Of a stretch of DNA of 64,000 nucleotides, positions 1 to 51,986 are shown piece by piece; position 1 is the stretch's first letter; every line of letters starts with the position of its first letter. The notes below the pieces were generated by a model that saw only the letters and a list, made by a program, of their open reading frames with translations, had not been told where the DNA came from and made no database searches. Origin of the DNA: Brevundimonas guildfordensis (GTDB taxonomy: Bacteria; Pseudomonadota; Alphaproteobacteria; Caulobacterales; Caulobacteraceae); assembly GCF_014836405.1 (NCBI RefSeq), contig NZ_JACSQU010000001.1, positions 1,116,001 through 1,180,000 of the forward strand, given 5' to 3'. The translations under genes and the position numbers were made by a program.

Positions 1-1123
1 GCGCGTCCATCGTCGAGCGGCCCCACAGCACCTTGTAGACCCAGGCGGTGTAGAGCAGGACGACCGGCATGAAGACCGCCGTCACGATCAGCATGATGAA
101 CAGGGTCGTGTGGCTGGATGAGGCGTTCCACACCGTCAGGCTGGACTGGGCGTCAATCGAGCTGGGCAGGATGAAGGGGAACATCGACAGGCCGACCGTC
201 GAGATGATCCCGACCGCAGAGGCCGACGACCCGCCGAAGGCGAGCAGAGCCGACCGGCGCCACATGCCCAGCAAACCGACCGCCGCGCCAGCAAAGCCCA
301 AGACCGGAGCAATGATCATCCACGGATAGCGGCCGTAGTTGTCCATCCAGGCGCCGGGCGCCGCCTCGACCGCCGTGCGCAGCGGGTTCGAAGCGCCGGC
401 GGTGTCGAGCACGCCGGTAATGCGGAAGCCCATGTCGCCGAACGCGACCATGGCGCCGCCGATGGCGAACAGCGCCAGGCTGAGGACCCCGGCGCCCGTC
501 CCGATGGCGCGCGCTCGGTTCAGCACCGGACCTTGCTCCCCCTTGATGGCCAGCCAGGCGGCGCCGTGCAGGACCAGCATGGACACCGACAGCAGGCCGC
601 AGATCAGGGTGAAGGGCGTGAACAGGCCCAGCAGGCTGCCCTCATAGAAGCTGCGCAGGTCGCTGGTCAGGCGGAAGGGCGCTCCCATCAGGACGTTGCC
701 CACCGCCACGCCGAACACCAGGGCCGGCACGAAGCTGCCGACGAACAGGCCCCAGTCCCACATCGAGCGCCAGCGCGCCTCGGGCCGCTTGGAGCGGTAT
801 TTGAACGACACCGGCCGCAAGATCAGCGCGGCCAGCACCAGGAACATCGCCAGGTAGAAGCCCGAAAAGCTGACCGCGTAAACCTGGGGCCAGGCGGCGA
901 AGATCGCCGCCCCGCCGACGATAAACCAGACCTGGTTGCCTTCCCAGGTCGCGCCGACGGTGTTGATCACCATGCGGCGCTCTTCATCCGTCTTGGCCAC
1001 GAAGGGCAGCAGGGCGCCGACGCCCATGTCGAACCCGTCGGTCAGGGCGAAGCCGATCAGCAGCACGCCCAGCAGTCCCCACCAGATCAGGCGGAGGGTG
1101 GTGTAGTCGAGGGGAAGTTCCAT
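1..1123 (-). CDS. cydB: Cytochrome bd quinol oxidase subunit II, 3' end missing
   Basis: Membrane subunit of cytochrome bd, which oxidises quinol and reduces oxygen to water with high affinity. The reading frame starts at ATG 1123 with MELPLDYTT and has no stop before the window edge, so only the last few residues are missing. The N-terminal stretch TLRLIWWGLLGVLLIGFALT leading into DGFDMGVGALLPF is a CydB hallmark, as is the later TVGATWEGNQVWF motif; eight or nine hydrophobic helices follow. It lies 24 bases behind cydA, in the standard cydAB order, so both are probably transcribed from the FNR-box promoter upstream of cydA. A CydX-type small subunit, if present here, would lie outside the window. 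Confidence 0.95.
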   Translation of the reverse strand, partial: MELPLDYTTLRLIWWGLLGVLLIGFALTDGFDMGVGALLPFVAKTDEERRMVINTVGATWEGNQVWFIVGGAAIFAAWPQVYAVSFSGFYLAMFLVLAALILRPVSFKYRSKRPEARWRSMWDWGLFVGSFVPALVFGVAVGNVLMGAPFRLTSDLRSFYEGSLLGLFTPFTLICGLLSVSMLVLHGAAWLAIKGEQGPVLNRARAIGTGAGVLSLALFAIGGAMVAFGDMGFRITGVLDTAGASNPLRTAVEAAPGAWMDNYGRYPWMIIAPVLGFAGAAVGLLGMWRRSALLAFGGSSASAVGIISTVGLSMFPFILPSSIDAQSSLTVWNASSSHTTLFIMLIVTAVFMPVVLLYTAWVYKVLWGRSTMDA

Positions 1124-1147: not shown

Positions 1148-2716
1148 TCAGGCGACCGCGGGCTCGCCTTCCGTGCGGGCGTCTTCTTCGAGCGCTTCCT
1201 GTTCAGCGAACGGTCCCTTCTTGACCGCGCGCAGGATCAGTCCGACCTCGACCACGGCGAGAGCGCCGTACAGCAGGGTGAAGCAGACGATCGTGGTCCA
1301 CAGGTGCGTGGTCGTCAGGCTGGATGCGCCCAGGAAGGTCGGCAAGACGCCTTCCACAGCCCAGGGCTGACGCCCCACCTCGGCCAGAATCCAACCCGAC
1401 TCGATAGCGATCCACGGCAGCGGGATGGCCAGGACGGCCAGGCGCAGGAACCACTTCGTTTCATGCTTGCGCAGGGTGCACAGCACGAAGGCGGTGGCGA
1501 ACAGTCCGATCATCAGGAAGCCGATGCCGGCCATGAATCGGAAGACCCAGAACATCAGCGGCACGTTCGGCACCGTCGACCAGGCCGCCAGCTTGACCTG
1601 GTCCGGGGTCGCCAGGCGCGGGTCCTCGACGTAGCGCTTCAACAGCAGGCCGTAGCCCAGGTCGTTGCGGACCGTCTCGAACTGGCCGCGGGCGGCCATG
1701 TCGGTCGGATCGGCCTTGACCTTCTCCAGGGCGTCATAGGCGACGACGCCGCGCTCGATGCGGTCTTCAGCGACGGCGACCAGCTCGAGGATGCCTACGA
1801 CCGGCTTGTCCAGGCTTCGCGTCGAGATCAAGCCCAGCGCATAGGGCACCTTGATCTCGTAATGGGTGTGGCGGTCGTCCAGATTGGGCAGCCCGAACAG
1901 GGTTAGACCTGCCGGCGCCGGTTCGGTGCGCCACATGGCTTCCAGAGCCGCCAGCTTCATCTTCTGGTTGTCGGTCAGGGCGTAGCCCGACTCATCGCCC
2001 AGAACCACGACCGACAGCGACGACAGCAGGCCGAAGGCGGCGGCGACCGTCATCGACCGCTTGGCGAAGCCCTTGTGTTTGCCCTTCAGCAGATAGAAGG
2101 CCGAAATGCCCAGCACGACCACGGCGGCGCAGACGTAGCCGGCCGACACGGTGTGGACGAACTTGGCCTGGGCCACCGGGTTGAAGATCACCGCCATGAA
2201 GTCGGTGATCTCCATGCGCATGGTGTCGGGATTGAAGGCCGCGCCGACCGGATTCTGCATCCAGCCGTTGGCGATCAGGATCCACAGCGCCGACAGGTTG
2301 GTGCCCAGGGCGACCATGAAGGTGACGAACAGGTGGGCGTGCGGCTTCAGCTTGTCCCAGCCAAAGAACATCAGGCCGACAAAGGTCGCTTCCAGGAAGA
2401 AGGCCATCAGGCCCTCGATCGCCAGCGGCGCCCCGAAGATGTCCCCGACGTAGTGGGAATAGTAGCTCCAGTTCATGCCGAACTGGAATTCCATCGTCAG
2501 GCCGGTGGCGACGCCCAGCACGAAATTGATGCCGAAGATCGTGCCCCAGAAGCGGGTGATCGTCCGCCAGATCGGCCGGCGGGTCATCACATAGATGCTC
2601 TCCATGATGACCAGCATGAAGGAGAGCCCCAAAGTGAGAGGCACGAACAGAAAGTGGTATAACGCCGTCAGTGCGAACTGAAGGCGTGAAAGGTCTACGA
2701 CCGCCAGGTCGATCAT
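1148..2716 (-). CDS. cydA: Cytochrome bd quinol oxidase subunit I
   Basis: Heme-carrying subunit of cytochrome bd that binds quinol and hemes b558, b595 and d (522 residues, the E. coli length). The early LYHFLFVPLTLG helix carries a heme-ligand His; GDESGY followed by an Ala/Glu-rich loop and TLFGLPNLDD mark the long quinol-binding Q-loop type (bd-I-like), not the short-loop cyanide-insensitive type. GRQPW near the C-terminus is also conserved. I chose ATG 2716 (MIDLAVVDL) because AGGAG lies 8 bases upstream; an in-frame start ten codons earlier has no such site. It diverges from cydD, with a perfect FNR box between them, implying induction at low oxygen. Confidence 0.96.
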   Translation of the reverse strand: MIDLAVVDLSRLQFALTALYHFLFVPLTLGLSFMLVIMESIYVMTRRPIWRTITRFWGTIFGINFVLGVATGLTMEFQFGMNWSYYSHYVGDIFGAPLAIEGLMAFFLEATFVGLMFFGWDKLKPHAHLFVTFMVALGTNLSALWILIANGWMQNPVGAAFNPDTMRMEITDFMAVIFNPVAQAKFVHTVSAGYVCAAVVVLGISAFYLLKGKHKGFAKRSMTVAAAFGLLSSLSVVVLGDESGYALTDNQKMKLAALEAMWRTEPAPAGLTLFGLPNLDDRHTHYEIKVPYALGLISTRSLDKPVVGILELVAVAEDRIERGVVAYDALEKVKADPTDMAARGQFETVRNDLGYGLLLKRYVEDPRLATPDQVKLAAWSTVPNVPLMFWVFRFMAGIGFLMIGLFATAFVLCTLRKHETKWFLRLAVLAIPLPWIAIESGWILAEVGRQPWAVEGVLPTFLGASSLTTTHLWTTIVCFTLLYGALAVVEVGLILRAVKKGPFAEQEALEEDARTEGEPAVA

Positions 2717-2764
2717 CGTTCCAGGCTCCTGACCGCCAGCCCCCATCGACCGGCGTTCTACTCT

Positions 2765-2806
2765 AACCTAAAGCGGCGCGGTTCGCCGCGCCTTGATCCT
2801 GATCAA
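2765..2806. promoter_or_regulatory. FNR/FixK box between cydA and cydD, with candidate cydA -10
   Basis: TTGATCCTGATCAA at 2793-2806 matches the FNR/FixK/Anr consensus TTGAT-N4-ATCAA perfectly. If the box is centred at -41.5 for the minus-strand gene, transcription would start near 2758 and the -10 hexamer would be TAGGTT (2770-2765, minus strand), a fair match. The same palindrome lies 125 bases before the cydD start and could also serve that direction. The box is directly seen; promoter geometry is inferred. Confidence 0.8.
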
Positions 2807-2930
2807 AGTCGCCGTTGCAGGATTGGACTAGTCGGCGTTTCGCCCAAGGACCTTTCGTCCCATGGTCCTTTTGCCCAATCCCGCTGCGTCGGCGATCATG
2901 GCTGATCCGCTGGTCCACCCCGGAGACAAG

Positions 2931-4559
2931 ATGACGGCCCAGCCGATCGCCCCCACCGCCCCTGCTCTAGACGACACGCCGCCCGCCGCCTGGTTGAAGG
3001 TCGCTCTGGCCCCGTGGCGGCGGCTGATGACTCTCGGCGGCGCGCTGGTGATCGCCGACACCGTGCCTGCGATCGGATTCGCAGCCGGTCTGGCCCTGGC
3101 GGTCGGCGCCCTGCCTCAGGGCATCGAACGCGCCCTGCCCGGCCTCGCTCTGGCGGCCGTCTCCCTGCTGGCGCGCGGCGTGCTCAGCCACACGGCGGTC
3201 AAGGTGAACACCCGAGCCGCCCGCGCCGCCAAGAACGGAATTCGCCGTTCCATCCTGACCGAAGCCCTGTCCGGCCGTCTGTCCGACGCCGCCGCCATGA
3301 CCGCTGTGGTCGAAGGGGTCGAGGCGCTTGACGGCCATGTCGCGCGCTTCTCTCCCGCCCGCACGGCGGCCGCCGCTTCACCTCTTATCCTGATCGCCGT
3401 CACCGCCGTGGTCAGCCCTTTCACGGCGGGCATACTGATCTTCACCCTGCTGCCTTTCGTCATCGGCATGGCGCTTACCGGCATGGCGGCCGGCGCCGAG
3501 AGCCGGCGTCAGTTCCAGGCGTTGGAACGGCTGTCCGGCCTGTTCCTGGACCGGGTGCGCGCCCTGCCCGCCATCCTGGCCTTTCAGGCTGAGGACCAGC
3601 AGGCCCGCGTCATCGCCCGCGCTTCGGACGACCTGGCCCGCCGCACCGGCAAGGTGCTGAAGGTCGCCTTCGTGTCCTCGGCGGTATTGGAGTTCTTCTC
3701 GGCCCTGGCGGTGGCCCTGGTGGCCGTCTACTGCGGCTTCAACCTGCTGAAGCTGCTGCCCTTCCCGGCGCCGGAACAGCTCAGCCTGACTCGCGCCTTC
3801 TTCGTTCTGGCGCTGGCGCCGGAAGTCTATCAGCCGATGCGCCGCCTCGCCGCCGCCTACCACGACCGTCAGGCCGCCGAGTCCGCCGTCCCCAGCCTGC
3901 GTCGCCTGAGCGTCGAAATGAAGAGCCGCCAGCGCCCCGCCCGGCCTGATCAGGCGCCAGCCATCGCCTTTCAGGATGTCGCCATCGCCTATGACGGCGC
4001 GGCGGTGGTCGAGCATTTCAATCTGGATGTCGCCCCCGGGTCCATCGTGGCCCTGACGGGTCTCAGCGGCTCGGGCAAGAGCAGCCTGCTGCACCTGTTT
4101 ATGGGCCTGTCGCCTCTCAGCGCGGGAGAGGTCATGGTCGGCGAGGCGCGCCTTTCGCAGGCGGCCGAGCTAACCGACTGGATCGCCTGGGCCGGCCAAG
4201 CCCCAGTCGTCATTCGCGGAACCCTGGCCGAGAACATCGCCCTGGCCCATCGCAGCGCGACACCCGAGGCGGTGGAAAAGGCTGCACGAAAGGCGGGCCT
4301 GAACGGCGCGCTGGATCGTCTGATCGACGAACGCGGCGGGGGCCTGTCGGGGGGCGAACGCCGCCGTCTCGGCCTGGCCCGCGCCTTCCTGAAGCCCGCG
4401 CCTCTGCTGCTGCTGGACGAACCCACCGCCAATCTGGACGCCGAGGCCGAAGCCGCCCTGCTGCCCGTCATCCGCGAGGCCGCGCGCGGCCGCACCGTGC
4501 TGATCGCCACCCATTCCGACGCCGTGGCCGCTTTGGCCGACAAGGTGGTGCGCCTGTGA
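2931..4559 (+). CDS. cydD: Cysteine/glutathione ABC exporter subunit needed for cytochrome bd
   Basis: Half of the heterodimeric CydDC exporter, which moves thiols (cysteine, glutathione) to the periplasm and is required to assemble cytochrome bd. 542 residues: N-terminal membrane domain (about 20-320) and C-terminal ATPase with Walker A GLSGSGKSS, signature LSGGE, and Walker B LLLLDEPT. ATG 2931 is preferred over an in-frame ATG at 2862 because GGAGAC sits just upstream. Its stop overlaps the cydC start by four bases (GTGA), so translation is coupled. Divergent from cydAB across the FNR box. Confidence 0.93.
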   Translation: MTAQPIAPTAPALDDTPPAAWLKVALAPWRRLMTLGGALVIADTVPAIGFAAGLALAVGALPQGIERALPGLALAAVSLLARGVLSHTAVKVNTRAARAAKNGIRRSILTEALSGRLSDAAAMTAVVEGVEALDGHVARFSPARTAAAASPLILIAVTAVVSPFTAGILIFTLLPFVIGMALTGMAAGAESRRQFQALERLSGLFLDRVRALPAILAFQAEDQQARVIARASDDLARRTGKVLKVAFVSSAVLEFFSALAVALVAVYCGFNLLKLLPFPAPEQLSLTRAFFVLALAPEVYQPMRRLAAAYHDRQAAESAVPSLRRLSVEMKSRQRPARPDQAPAIAFQDVAIAYDGAAVVEHFNLDVAPGSIVALTGLSGSGKSSLLHLFMGLSPLSAGEVMVGEARLSQAAELTDWIAWAGQAPVVIRGTLAENIALAHRSATPEAVEKAARKAGLNGALDRLIDERGGGLSGGERRRLGLARAFLKPAPLLLLDEPTANLDAEAEAALLPVIREAARGRTVLIATHSDAVAALADKVVRL

Positions 4560-6220
4560 GCCGTTCCGAATCGCCCGGCGTCGCCCGCGTGAAGGCCCTG
4601 ATCCGCGCGCAGGAGAAGGCCCAGCGCCCGCGCCTGCTGGCCGCCTCCGTCACCGCCGCCCTGGTGTCGGCAGGCGCTGTCCTGCTGCTCGGCCTGTCGG
4701 GCTGGTTCATCACCGCCGCCGCCCTCGCCGGCGCCGCCGGGCCGGCCGTGGCCCATGTCTTCAACTACATGGTGCCTAGCGCCATGATCCGCTTCTTCGC
4801 CATCGTGCGCACCGCCTCGCGGTATGGCGAGCGCGTCACCGGCCATGACGCGGCGTTGAAGGCGCTGGCGGCTCTGCGTCCGCAGCTGTTCATCGGCCTG
4901 GCCCGCGCCCCCACGACCAAGGCCCTTTCCTTGGCGGGCGGCGAAGCTTCCGCTCGACTGGTTCAGGACGTGGACGCGATCCAGGACCGTTTCGTGCGCC
5001 TGTCGACGCCCTGGGGCGCGGGCGCCGGTTTGATCGCCGGCGTCGGCATGGCGGCCCTGGCCGGATGGGCCCCGGCGCTCGTCGTCGCGTCCGCCGCCGC
5101 TTTGGGCGTCATCCTGGCCGTCGTGATCGGACGCCGCTTCGCCGAACCTGCTGGCCGCCGCCTTCAGCAGGCCTCCGGCGCCCTGAAGACCGAGTTCGCC
5201 GCCCTGGCCGCCGCCGCGCCCGAGCTTCAGGCCTATGGCATGAAGGCCTGGGCCGCCGACCGGCTGGCCGAGCACGGCGACGCGGTCGAGCTCGCAGCCG
5301 AGCGGCTGGCCCGCGCCGGCGGTCTGATCATGGCCAGCCAGAGCCTCGCCATGGCATTTGGGGTGGCGGGCGCGGCTTTGGCCGCAGGCGCCGGCGCCCC
5401 CGCCCTGACCGCCCTGTCCATGCTGGCCGCCGTCGCCACGGTTGAGAGCGCCGGAACCCTGCTGAACGCCCTGCGCCAGAACGGCGCGGTCAAGGAGGCC
5501 GTCCAGCGCTTGGGCGAACTTCTGGACGATGAAGCGCCCGCGTCGCCGGTCGCTGACGTATCGCCGAGCCTGCGGCTGTCCGGCGCCGATCTGACGGTGG
5601 CCCCGCCGCAGCGCCTCGCGCTCACGGGCCCGTCCGGAGCCGGAAAGACGACCCTTATCGAGCGGCTGATGGGCCTGCGCGCGACCAGCCCGGGAGAAAT
5701 ACTGCACGGGGATATCGACGCCGCCGCCCTTGGCGCCGAGACGTTGAGGCCGCTGTTCGCCTATGCTCCGCAACAGGCCGTGCTTCTGACCGGCAGCGTG
5801 CGCGAAAACTTGCGCCTGGCGGCCCCGACCGCTTCCGACGAGGATCTGTGGTCCGCCCTGGAGGACGCTGCCCTGGCCGAGCGCATCCGCGCCGCGCCCG
5901 GCGGGCTGGACACGCCGGTGGGCGAGAACGGCGCGCGCCTGTCAGGCGGAGAGCGCCGCCGCCTCGGCCTGGCCCGCGCCTATCTGCGCCCCTCGCCCTG
6001 GCTGGTGCTTGACGAACCCACCGAGGGTCTGGACGCCGCCACCGAAGCCCTGGTTCTTGAGCGGCTCGCCGCACGGCTGCACCACAGCGGCCAGGGATTG
6101 ATCGTCGTCAGCCACCGCCCTGCGCCTCTCGCCCTGTGCGGCGTGGCTCTGACGGTTACCGGCCTGGCGTCGACCGGCCGCGTCGAGGTCAGCGCAAGGC
6201 CCGTGCCCGCGGCCGCCTGA
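4556..6220 (+). CDS. cydC: Cysteine/glutathione ABC exporter subunit, partner of CydD
   Basis: Second half of the CydDC thiol exporter, 554 residues. The membrane domain covers roughly residues 20-310; the ATPase domain has Walker A GPSGAGKTT, signature LSGGERRR, and Walker B LVLDEPTEGLD. GTG start at 4556 lies inside the cydD stop (GTGA overlap), typical of co-translated heterodimer subunits. Together with cydAB the region provides the full oxidase plus its maturation transporter. The short linker and compact nucleotide-binding domain make it slightly smaller than E. coli CydC. Confidence 0.92.
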   Translation: MSRSESPGVARVKALIRAQEKAQRPRLLAASVTAALVSAGAVLLLGLSGWFITAAALAGAAGPAVAHVFNYMVPSAMIRFFAIVRTASRYGERVTGHDAALKALAALRPQLFIGLARAPTTKALSLAGGEASARLVQDVDAIQDRFVRLSTPWGAGAGLIAGVGMAALAGWAPALVVASAAALGVILAVVIGRRFAEPAGRRLQQASGALKTEFAALAAAAPELQAYGMKAWAADRLAEHGDAVELAAERLARAGGLIMASQSLAMAFGVAGAALAAGAGAPALTALSMLAAVATVESAGTLLNALRQNGAVKEAVQRLGELLDDEAPASPVADVSPSLRLSGADLTVAPPQRLALTGPSGAGKTTLIERLMGLRATSPGEILHGDIDAAALGAETLRPLFAYAPQQAVLLTGSVRENLRLAAPTASDEDLWSALEDAALAERIRAAPGGLDTPVGENGARLSGGERRRLGLARAYLRPSPWLVLDEPTEGLDAATEALVLERLAARLHHSGQGLIVVSHRPAPLALCGVALTVTGLASTGRVEVSARPVPAAA

Positions 6221-6233
6221 TGGCGCGGCGACT

Positions 6234-6247
6234 TTGATCTCAATCAA
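6234..6247. promoter_or_regulatory. Second perfect FNR/FixK box
   Basis: TTGATCTCAATCAA matches TTGAT-N4-ATCAA exactly. It lies 14 bases after the cydC stop and 48 bases before the ATG of a short membrane protein at 6296. A class II arrangement (box centred at -41.5) would put transcription start near 6282, just ahead of that gene's AGGAG site. It therefore probably drives the small gene and not cydDC. Confidence 0.75.
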
Positions 6248-6295
6248 GGCGGCGCAGGCGGTCAACCGCTTTTCTGTCGGCAGAGGAGATCACCA

Positions 6296-6412
6296 ATGCC
6301 CGCAGACATCATCGCCCCCGTCGTCGCCATCAGCGCCTTCTTCATGACCTTCATCATCGGCATGGCCTACGGCTGCATCGCCAGCAACCTGCCGACGCCA
6401 GAGAAAGGCTGA
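6296..6412 (+). CDS. 38-residue single-helix membrane protein behind an FNR box
   Basis: Begins MPADIIAPVV, has one continuous hydrophobic stretch (about residues 5-29, containing FFMTFIIGMAYGC), and ends in a short polar tail NLPTPEKG. GAGGAG lies 7-8 bases before the ATG, and a perfect FNR box lies 48 bases upstream. The length and single helix recall accessory subunits of terminal oxidases (CydX of bd, CcoQ of cbb3), but the sequence lacks the CydX N-terminal Trp-Tyr pattern, so I do not assign it. Its position after cydDC and its own low-oxygen-type promoter suggest a role with cytochrome bd or another respiratory complex. This is inference. Confidence 0.65.
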   Translation: MPADIIAPVVAISAFFMTFIIGMAYGCIASNLPTPEKG

Positions 6413-6485
6413 GCCTCATGGCGCCTGCCCCGGCGGTCTGGCGCCGAGGTCAGGGCGAGCGGCCGACCAAACAGGAGGCCTTAGC

Positions 6486-6511
6486 GACGCCGCCTGAAAT
6501 CAGGCGGCGTC
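6486..6511. terminator. 12-bp perfect hairpin at the stop of the CorC-like gene
   Basis: A 12-base arm (6486-6497), a 2-base loop, and its exact complement (6500-6511). The hairpin includes the stop codon of the minus-strand gene at 6500. No T-run follows on either strand, so factor-independent termination is uncertain. It sits between two convergent genes (the 38-residue protein and the CBS-domain protein). Confidence 0.45.
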
Positions 6512-7813
6512 GTCTGCATGTGTGTGGATCACTGGCCGGAACAACAGCTTGTCGATACGTCGGTCGTCCATATCGATGACCTCGACCTCGAAACGGCCCA
6601 GTTGCAGGATATCGCCCTCGTCCGGCACCCGCGACAGATGGTGCAGCACCAGGCCCGCTACCGTGTGGAAGCCTTCATGCTCGCCGAAGTCTTCGCCCAG
6701 CGCTTCGCCCAGCTCATCCAGATCGATCTGACCGTCGACAGCCCAGGTGCCGTCAGCGCGCTTGCGCACGGCCGTCTCGACCTCGTCATGGCTCTCGTTG
6801 AAGTCGCCGGCGATCATTTCCAGCAAATCCGTCGCCGTGACCACGCCTTCAAAGGCGCCGTACTCGTCGACCACGAAGGCCATGTGGACCTTCGAGCCCT
6901 TCAGGATCTCCAGCGCCTTCAGCACCGAGGTCGACTGCGGGATGAAGGCCGGTTCGGCCACCAGCGTCTCGACGTTGAACTCGCCATTGGTGAGCAGGCT
7001 GTCCAGCAGGTCCTTCTTGTGGACCACGCCCAGCGGATTATCGATATCGTTATCGCGCGCCACCACGATGCGCGAATAGGGGCAGGTGCGGATTTCCTCG
7101 CGCAGCGTCTCTTCGGAATCGTCCAGCGCGATCCAGTAGACCTCGTGGCGCGGCGTCATGGCCACGCGCACGGCCCGGTCGCCCAGGCGCAGGATCTCTT
7201 CGATCATCTCCTGCTCTTCCGGCTCGATCAGGCCCGCAGACGTGCCTTCCGCCAGAATGCTTTCCACCTCTTCCTGGGTGACGTCCGATCCATCGCGGTC
7301 CTTGACGCCCATCAGCTTGAGGATGCCGGAGGTCGACGCCGTCAGCAGCAGCACGAAGGGCTTCATCGCCAAAGCCAGCGTCGAGATCGGCACGGCCATC
7401 TTGGAAGCGATCGTCTCGGGGAAGATCAGGGCCAGGCGTTTGGGCACCAGTTCGCCGACGATCAGCGAAACATAGGTGATCAGCACCACCACCACGGCCG
7501 TGGCGATGATCTGGGAATAAGGCGCCAGGGCGGGCAGGTTCGCCTTGAGGATCTCATCCAGCTGACCAGCGATGGCCGCCTGGCCATAGGCGCCCGCCAG
7601 AATGCCGATCAGGGTGATTCCCACCTGGACCGCAGACAGAAACTGGGTGGGCTCTTCGGCCAGCTTGAGCGCGGCGCGGGCGCCGCGATCGCCTCTTTCG
7701 GCGCGGCTCTGAAGCTTGGATCTGCGGGATGACACGACCGCAAGTTCGGTCATGGCGAAAAGGCCGTTCAGCACCACGAGCAGCAGCACGACGACGATAG
7801 CGATGGTCAACAT
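6500..7813 (-). CDS. CNNM/CorC (HlyC)-family membrane protein with CBS domains
   Basis: 437 residues. An N-terminal DUF21/CNNM membrane domain (about 1-195, four hydrophobic segments, containing MTELAVVSSRR and GELVPKRLAL) is followed by a CBS pair (about 210-335, RVAMTPRHEV to DEYGAFEGVVTATDLLEMI) and a C-terminal CorC_HlyC domain (about 345-425, AGLVLHHLSRVPDEGD). Family members take part in magnesium/cobalt export or resistance; older names call them hemolysins. No partner gene lies beside it. Assignment to the family is firm; the ion is not shown by the sequence. Confidence 0.9.
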   Translation of the reverse strand: MLTIAIVVVLLLVVLNGLFAMTELAVVSSRRSKLQSRAERGDRGARAALKLAEEPTQFLSAVQVGITLIGILAGAYGQAAIAGQLDEILKANLPALAPYSQIIATAVVVVLITYVSLIVGELVPKRLALIFPETIASKMAVPISTLALAMKPFVLLLTASTSGILKLMGVKDRDGSDVTQEEVESILAEGTSAGLIEPEEQEMIEEILRLGDRAVRVAMTPRHEVYWIALDDSEETLREEIRTCPYSRIVVARDNDIDNPLGVVHKKDLLDSLLTNGEFNVETLVAEPAFIPQSTSVLKALEILKGSKVHMAFVVDEYGAFEGVVTATDLLEMIAGDFNESHDEVETAVRKRADGTWAVDGQIDLDELGEALGEDFGEHEGFHTVAGLVLHHLSRVPDEGDILQLGRFEVEVIDMDDRRIDKLLFRPVIHTHADDAA

Positions 7814-51761: not shown

Positions 51762-51986
51762 CACACTTTCCTTCCTGAAATTGTAGAATTGCGCTCCCGC
51801 CCGATAGCTTGGGTGGTTGGACGGCCAGGCGCGCCATCTTCATGCCGGAGTTACGAGCGTCTCACTGGGGCGACTTGGATTTCCCGTCAGTTCCCGCCCC
51901 GTTTCCAAACTTTTCGTGTAGCGCTGCTGTAGGAACCGGCTTCACCCCTGTCGCTTGACTTCACTCAATCAACAGGGAGAACCGCC

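Follow-up and report, generated by a model that had tools for sequence, protein, structure and literature searches.

CydX is recognised by a YxxWxxGx15E/D motif and by being encoded directly after cydB, and two further small single-helix proteins tied to cydAB, CydY and CydZ, are described in the available part of the same source as encoded downstream of cydB and as having a conserved tryptophan at the helix start (PMC4325964). YohP of E. coli – only 27 residues long – is presented in the available part of PMC12719787 as a stress-linked small membrane protein that lowers membrane potential and fluidity. For the alphaproteobacterial FNR, FixK and DNR regulons, the accessible portion of PMC2908626 places FNR itself, UspA, HemN and OmpW in the FNR set.

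Here, we describe a 38-codon gene located downstream of cydDC in Brevundimonas guildfordensis, within a 64,000-nucleotide stretch of DNA (the whole stretch analysed, referred to as the window). Judged by its conservation among relatives, it is very probably a real, translated gene of an FNR regulon. The explanation that we favour, and to which we give about an even chance of being correct, is that its product is an FNR-activated single-span microprotein of the inner membrane acting as an accessory of low-oxygen respiration, in this genome most likely on CydABX.

Read from left to right, the locus contains an FNR/CRP-family gene on the plus strand; ompW, cydX, cydB and cydA on the minus strand; an FNR box followed by cydD and cydC; and then a further box, the microprotein gene, a hairpin and a convergent CNNM gene (Table 1). 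The FNR/CRP-family gene lies to the left of the window (L012:1185-1925, plus strand), is separated from cydX by ompW (PF03922), and matches PF00027 and PF13545 with HPCANCGARPLGVC. Its N-terminal cysteines, CANCGARPLGVC, mark a putative FNR-type regulator in this genome, and the gene is a candidate regulator of the microprotein gene. An FNR-like box, TTGACGCAGATCAA, is located about 520 bases upstream of the start taken for it. The genome has one cydA match and, searched with TIGR00780 at E up to 1e-30, zero matches to ccoN.

Table 1. Features of the cyd locus (window coordinates, except where L012 is given)
Feature	Coordinates	Strand	Remarks
cydX (canonical)	L012:2833-2952	-	begins 48 bases beyond the window's left edge; PF08173, 58 bits (cut-off 26.2)
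cydB	1-1123	-	runs off the window; read by eye
cydA, long type	1148-2746	-	PF01654, 574 bits; match spans 1482 nt
Second exact FNR box, between cydA and cydD	2793-2806	+	pattern search
cydD	2862-4559	+	TIGR02857, 450 bits, over cut-off; true start may lie further in
cydC	4556-6220	+	TIGR02868, 309 bits, just under cut-off of 329
FNR box TTGATCTCAATCAA	6234-6247	+	exact TTGAT-N4-ATCAA; centre ~55 bases before ATG
Shine-Dalgarno AGGAGA	6284-6289	+	invariant in 11 founding members
Microprotein gene (38 aa, single-span membrane)	6296-6412	+	frame conserved in 11 founding members, own included; helix 3-31
Scar of 123-residue gene	6429-6483		55 bases here vs ~389 in L015
13-bp hairpin between microprotein and CNNM genes	6484-6513		-28.7 kcal/mol for 51 nt, z -5.2
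CNNM/CorC-type gene, convergent	6500-7813	-	PF01595, PF03471, PF00571

The frame, ribosome site and exact FNR box that the initial annotation had proposed are all present in the letters of the window, and so is the position right after cydDC: the box begins 13 bases past the cydC stop codon and ends 48 bases upstream of the ATG (box start at -62). Exact TTGAT-N4-ATCAA sites number just two in the whole 2.88 Mb genome, both at this cyd locus. The relaxed pattern TTGA-N6-TCAA has three sites in the window, a number that none of 100 shuffles attains (their mean is 0.20), and 21 genome-wide against 8 for the reversed pattern. A third FNR-like sequence in the window, TTGACTTCACTCAA (51955-51968), stands 18 bases before an ATG and is probably there by chance.

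Translation from the ATG to the stop codon gives the 38-residue peptide MPADIIAPVVAISAFFMTFIIGMAYGCIASNLPTPEKG, whose best 19-residue Kyte-Doolittle mean is 2.37 and whose predicted structure is one helix with a mean pLDDT of 91 and a pTM of 0.52, in agreement with the single hydrophobic helix described earlier. In the best-sampled clade (7 sequences), pairwise differences at codon positions 1, 2 and 3 are 58, 38 and 181, so that the third position dominates. The window's own clade (4 sequences) has few changes, 22, 6 and 15 at the three positions, with no third-position bias, and in 10 of the 11 founding sequences of the family another forward frame likewise contains no stop; the coding claim therefore rests on the wider family and not on this clade. 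Ka/Ks, calculated for 10 of the 55 possible pairs, is 0.14 to 0.84 in nine of them, the most distant pair giving 1.18. Sequence comparison supports the frame and its conservation as well as the box and the helix, and the evidence for translation is comparative too.

In near relatives (L013-L021), the frame is followed within a few bases by a gene of 123 residues (MTLHH... or MALHH...), which also occurs near other microprotein copies (L057, L059 and L084) and, at E up to 0.001, is without a Pfam match. This gene, the strict conservation of box and leader while much of the frame varies, and the weak coding signal of the window's own clade could be taken to mean that the box serves a small RNA or the relatives' downstream gene, with the short frame incidental. 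We consider this very improbable: the 123-residue gene has been deleted from the window genome with box, frame and hairpin all kept, which argues that the frame itself is the target of the box; it was not found after the frame in L022, L061 and L079; and profiles built from protein alone find places that have the box, in addition to the third-position bias noted above. Transcription likely ends at the hairpin, where, as it has no long T run, we only infer termination.

Used as a single query, the window peptide was found in 11 of 131 Brevundimonas genomes, its own included. The frame is conserved in these founding members, a point that the initial annotation had asked to be checked: all 11 have the 38-codon frame, the same AGGAGA and a box starting at exactly -62, with a variable spacer between box and leader. 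Profile A1, made from the founding members, gave places in 71 of 390 genomes of the family Caulobacteraceae at E up to 0.05. These comprise the 11 founding members, five with a box already seen (L030-L034) and 55 others, 40 of which were fetched with wide flanks; TTGA-N6-TCAA is present at -60 to -75 in 39 of the 40, some of which were known to have the box before they were fetched. These profiles use protein only and none of the DNA around the frame. The broader profile A2 reached 226 of the 390 genomes at a loose E of 0.1, with a box in 15 of 20 places fetched outside the genus.

Across the class Alphaproteobacteria, which was sampled with 337 genomes, profile A3 has matches in 16 (E up to 0.01) and A5 in 47 (E up to 0.05). 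Among the best 30 A5 places, the box is present in 14 of the 20 with E up to 1e-5 and in 5 of the other 10, leaving 11 without a strict box; several of the weakest class places lie inside longer frames and look spurious (L204, L205 and L208). A search of the phylum returned 14 of 115 genomes at E up to 0.05, seven of them outside the class (E 0.007-0.048), with L208 recurring. Altogether, 101 places of the microprotein family were examined: 84 have an FNR-type box at a distance of 55-100 bases upstream, where about 0.6% would be expected to (0.0056 per place, from how densely such boxes occur in the fetched loci), and 17 have no strict box. Among the latter type in Caulobacteraceae are L061, L124, L125, L127, L131 and L133, all judged from the start taken, which for L133 is provisional. 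The TTGAT-N4-ATCAA box is conserved across species, at what would be an activating distance, and comparison supports both gene and box well.

The Caulobacteraceae and wider class sets are likely homologous; comparison of profiles A2 and A4 gave an hhalign value of 96.9%, a test biased by the gathering of A4 with profile A3, which itself contains A2 members. Family members share a short N-terminus, a helix that has F-x-x-F, small residues and, in many cases, W or Y towards the end, and a short tail, frequently basic, which by the positive-inside rule should be cytoplasmic. The F-x-x-F is invariant in 51 A2 sequences and near-invariant beyond.

Genus genomes without the peptide were also searched for a box, ribosome site and ATG in combination; 9 of 27 gave a match, mostly to longer genes by eye (e.g. 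USP-like ones and cydA). One of the places in such genomes, L152 in G012, may be a divergent relative: a variant of 51-58 residues in G012 and in G108 (L321) has the pattern MS-D/E-DTLP...AF-LTFL-PVGG and an FNR-type box 64 bases before its start. With two relatives of the window peptide as queries, a tblastn search of plasmids yielded 53 records at E 7, all attributed to chance, for one and none for the other. A separate record, JAFKFS010000157.1 (L209), is titled as a Bordetella sp. MAG and contains a Brevundimonas-like cyd locus; its title looks wrong.

The microprotein gene occurs in varied settings. In the founding clade, it comes directly after cydC and has a box of its own; elsewhere in Brevundimonas, it is found after cydC and an fnr-type gene, or near hemN, and in one group (L049-L051, L056, L060 and similar) between PQ-loop (SemiSWEET-like) and SCP2 genes, with no cyd gene within the 16 kb fetched; for each of these neighbours, Pfam was used to check the name on a single example. 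Genes of the USP (stress-protein) and fnr types are repeatedly found close to certain copies in the remaining Caulobacteraceae. Eleven class loci, compared by eye rather than by family searches, have no neighbour in common apart from related pairs (G398/G531 and G513/G700). The family is not tied to cydDC; what accompanies it constantly is the box.

Within the genus, the peptide is strongly associated with cytochrome bd. Long-type CydA is present in 60 of 65 peptide carriers and in 12 of 66 non-carriers (Fisher p 5e-19, ignoring shared ancestry), where a carrier has the peptide at E up to 1e-5, the long type is a PF01654 match spanning about 1482 nt, and the lists were copied by hand. Adding G084, left out of the main count for its truncated long-type match, gives 13 of 66 non-carriers (p 3e-18, again ignoring ancestry). 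Three genomes just below the cut-off – G037, G094 and G108 – were counted as non-carriers; the place in G094 (L322) has no box, and that in G108 has one. The five carriers without long-type CydA (G045, G119, G124, G058 and G080, the last with L062) all have both peptide and box. G058 carries the peptide twice (L319 and L320), with one strict box and one box with a mismatch.

These genus counts, together with the position directly after cydC under its own box in the founding clade, favour the part of the initial annotation that proposed a subunit or assembly factor of cytochrome bd, which would be a second CydX-like peptide recruited to the cydDC locus. A dedicated role of this kind is nonetheless improbable, in that a canonical CydX is already present, many relatives are encoded elsewhere, and, at the cut-off, the peptide is missing from 12 of the 72 Brevundimonas genomes that have long-type CydA (13 of 73 with G084), none of the 12 having a box-driven short hydrophobic frame in the 12-18 kb fetched around cydA; moreover, in the class as a whole, 15 of 26 genomes scored as carriers are without cydA, and the remaining 11 have it. 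The proposal of a bd subunit has the genus link in its favour and, against it, a family that as a whole is bound to neither cydDC nor bd. For the window genome itself, a role at cytochrome bd appears possible from its gene content.

The distribution of ccoN differs between genus and class. Using TIGR00780, it is absent from 11 of 12 Brevundimonas carriers tested, including the window genome, and from 10 of 12 non-carriers; 18 of 26 class carriers have it and eight do not. The class figure, the similar size and the single helix would suit a cbb3 oxidase subunit of the CcoM kind, yet with ccoN missing from nearly all the Brevundimonas carriers tested, we regard this as extremely unlikely. Since the window genome has no ccoN match, the cbb3 role also put forward in the initial annotation is very unlikely here. 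Identity with CcoM itself was rejected: a single comparison, with 5djq_N – deposited as uncharacterized and which we take to be CcoM – gave an hhalign probability of 2.5% (E 0.018).

Six of the 26 class carriers have neither cydA nor ccoN, two of these genomes being under 90% complete. We conclude that neither oxidase alone explains the microprotein family. This distribution, with the absence of a neighbour shared across class loci, leaves room for a low-oxygen membrane peptide that binds no oxidase and acts, like YohP, on the bilayer or the membrane potential, or else on another membrane protein. We hold such a peptide to be somewhat unlikely, given that ccoN or cydA is present in 17 of the 19 class genomes with a strict box at the peptide and only two of the six carriers with neither oxidase (G601 and G723) have a strict box, and given the strong genus link with long-type CydA and the near-invariant F-x-x-F, which suggests a protein partner. 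The class-wide link to oxidases is itself weak, as 19 of 30 class genomes without the peptide also have cydA or ccoN.

What stands from the initial annotation is an apparently real gene for a small membrane protein, predicted to be under FNR control and distinct from CydX, and its suggestion of a low-oxygen peptide fits best. The alternatives shrink to an accessory of CydABX in this genome or a more general low-oxygen membrane peptide; CydABX is the most likely host here because a search of the genome for two high-affinity oxidases turned up only bd. In the accessory reading that we prefer, a fall in oxygen would render the FNR-type regulator active, and it would bind the box, whose centre is about 55 bases ahead of the ATG. 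Activation of a class-II-like kind would then yield a short transcript ending at the hairpin. From sequence features of this sort we infer FNR binding, activation of the gene and production of the peptide, which is predicted to insert as one helix in the inner membrane with its tail probably in the cytoplasm. Through its F-x-x-F and small-residue face, it may pack on a low-oxygen respiratory complex, where its role would be that of an accessory or one of tuning.

A broader version of this scheme holds that the microprotein is an interchangeable regulator, found across the class, of whichever high-affinity chain is present (bd or cbb3), acting perhaps via a partner common to both, for instance the bc1 complex or the quinol pool, and that it has been overlooked because gene callers miss it; we think it unlikely that all of this is correct. 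FNR regulons have mostly been compiled on the basis of annotated genes, and a short gene under a clean FNR box could consequently be missed in many species. The profiles and the box provide a simple way to find the microprotein in other genomes and, if it is made, it offers a small, defined target for understanding how low-oxygen respiration is tuned in Alphaproteobacteria.

Comparison with known families gives few leads. At E up to 0.1, the window peptide has no match in Pfam or NCBIfam, and no PDB chain matches either family profile at E up to 10. Among 51 family members, the best Pfam match is to MWFE, a complex I accessory, at E 0.002 (5 of 51), with CcmD at 0.036 in one, and the best NCBIfam E is 0.017; ten members of the wider class set have best E values of 0.079 (Pfam) and 0.0041 (NCBIfam), all under the cut-offs. 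We attribute these weak matches to chance, because frames with a single helix give low scores against many profiles. MWFE is a single-helix accessory subunit of complex I, and that match, although probably also chance, may hint at a partner. Among open-licence papers, judged by their titles and the opening of their abstracts, no description of the family was found.

Of the described systems, YohP and the microprotein are alike, compared by description, as stress-linked small membrane proteins; the control of YohP is linked to starvation, and the term 'FNR' appears nowhere in PMC12719787. CydY and CydZ are set apart, also by description, by their position downstream of cydB and their helix-start tryptophan, both of which the microprotein lacks. 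CydX is a small single-span membrane protein beside bd genes of the long CydA type, as the microprotein is here, but identity with CydX was rejected in line with the initial annotation: the peptide has no tryptophan and a single tyrosine, at position 25, and so no YxxW; it is encoded after cydC instead of cydB and has its own FNR box; there is no profile relation (hhalign 0.9%); and the separate cydX of this genome, in L012, has both the motif (Y3, W6, G9 and E25) and the position after cydB. The available part of the table in PMC2908626 names no such microprotein, a few of its entries being listed simply as 'hypothetical protein', and the regulons described there show the same kind of control as that predicted here. 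CcoM of the Pseudomonas stutzeri cbb3 oxidase is a further likeness, with 36 residues, one helix and a place in low-oxygen respiration. Set beside these systems, the microproteins are rated here as a new and so far unnamed family that belongs to a familiar type, small membrane proteins of low-oxygen respiration, and extends across Alphaproteobacteria.
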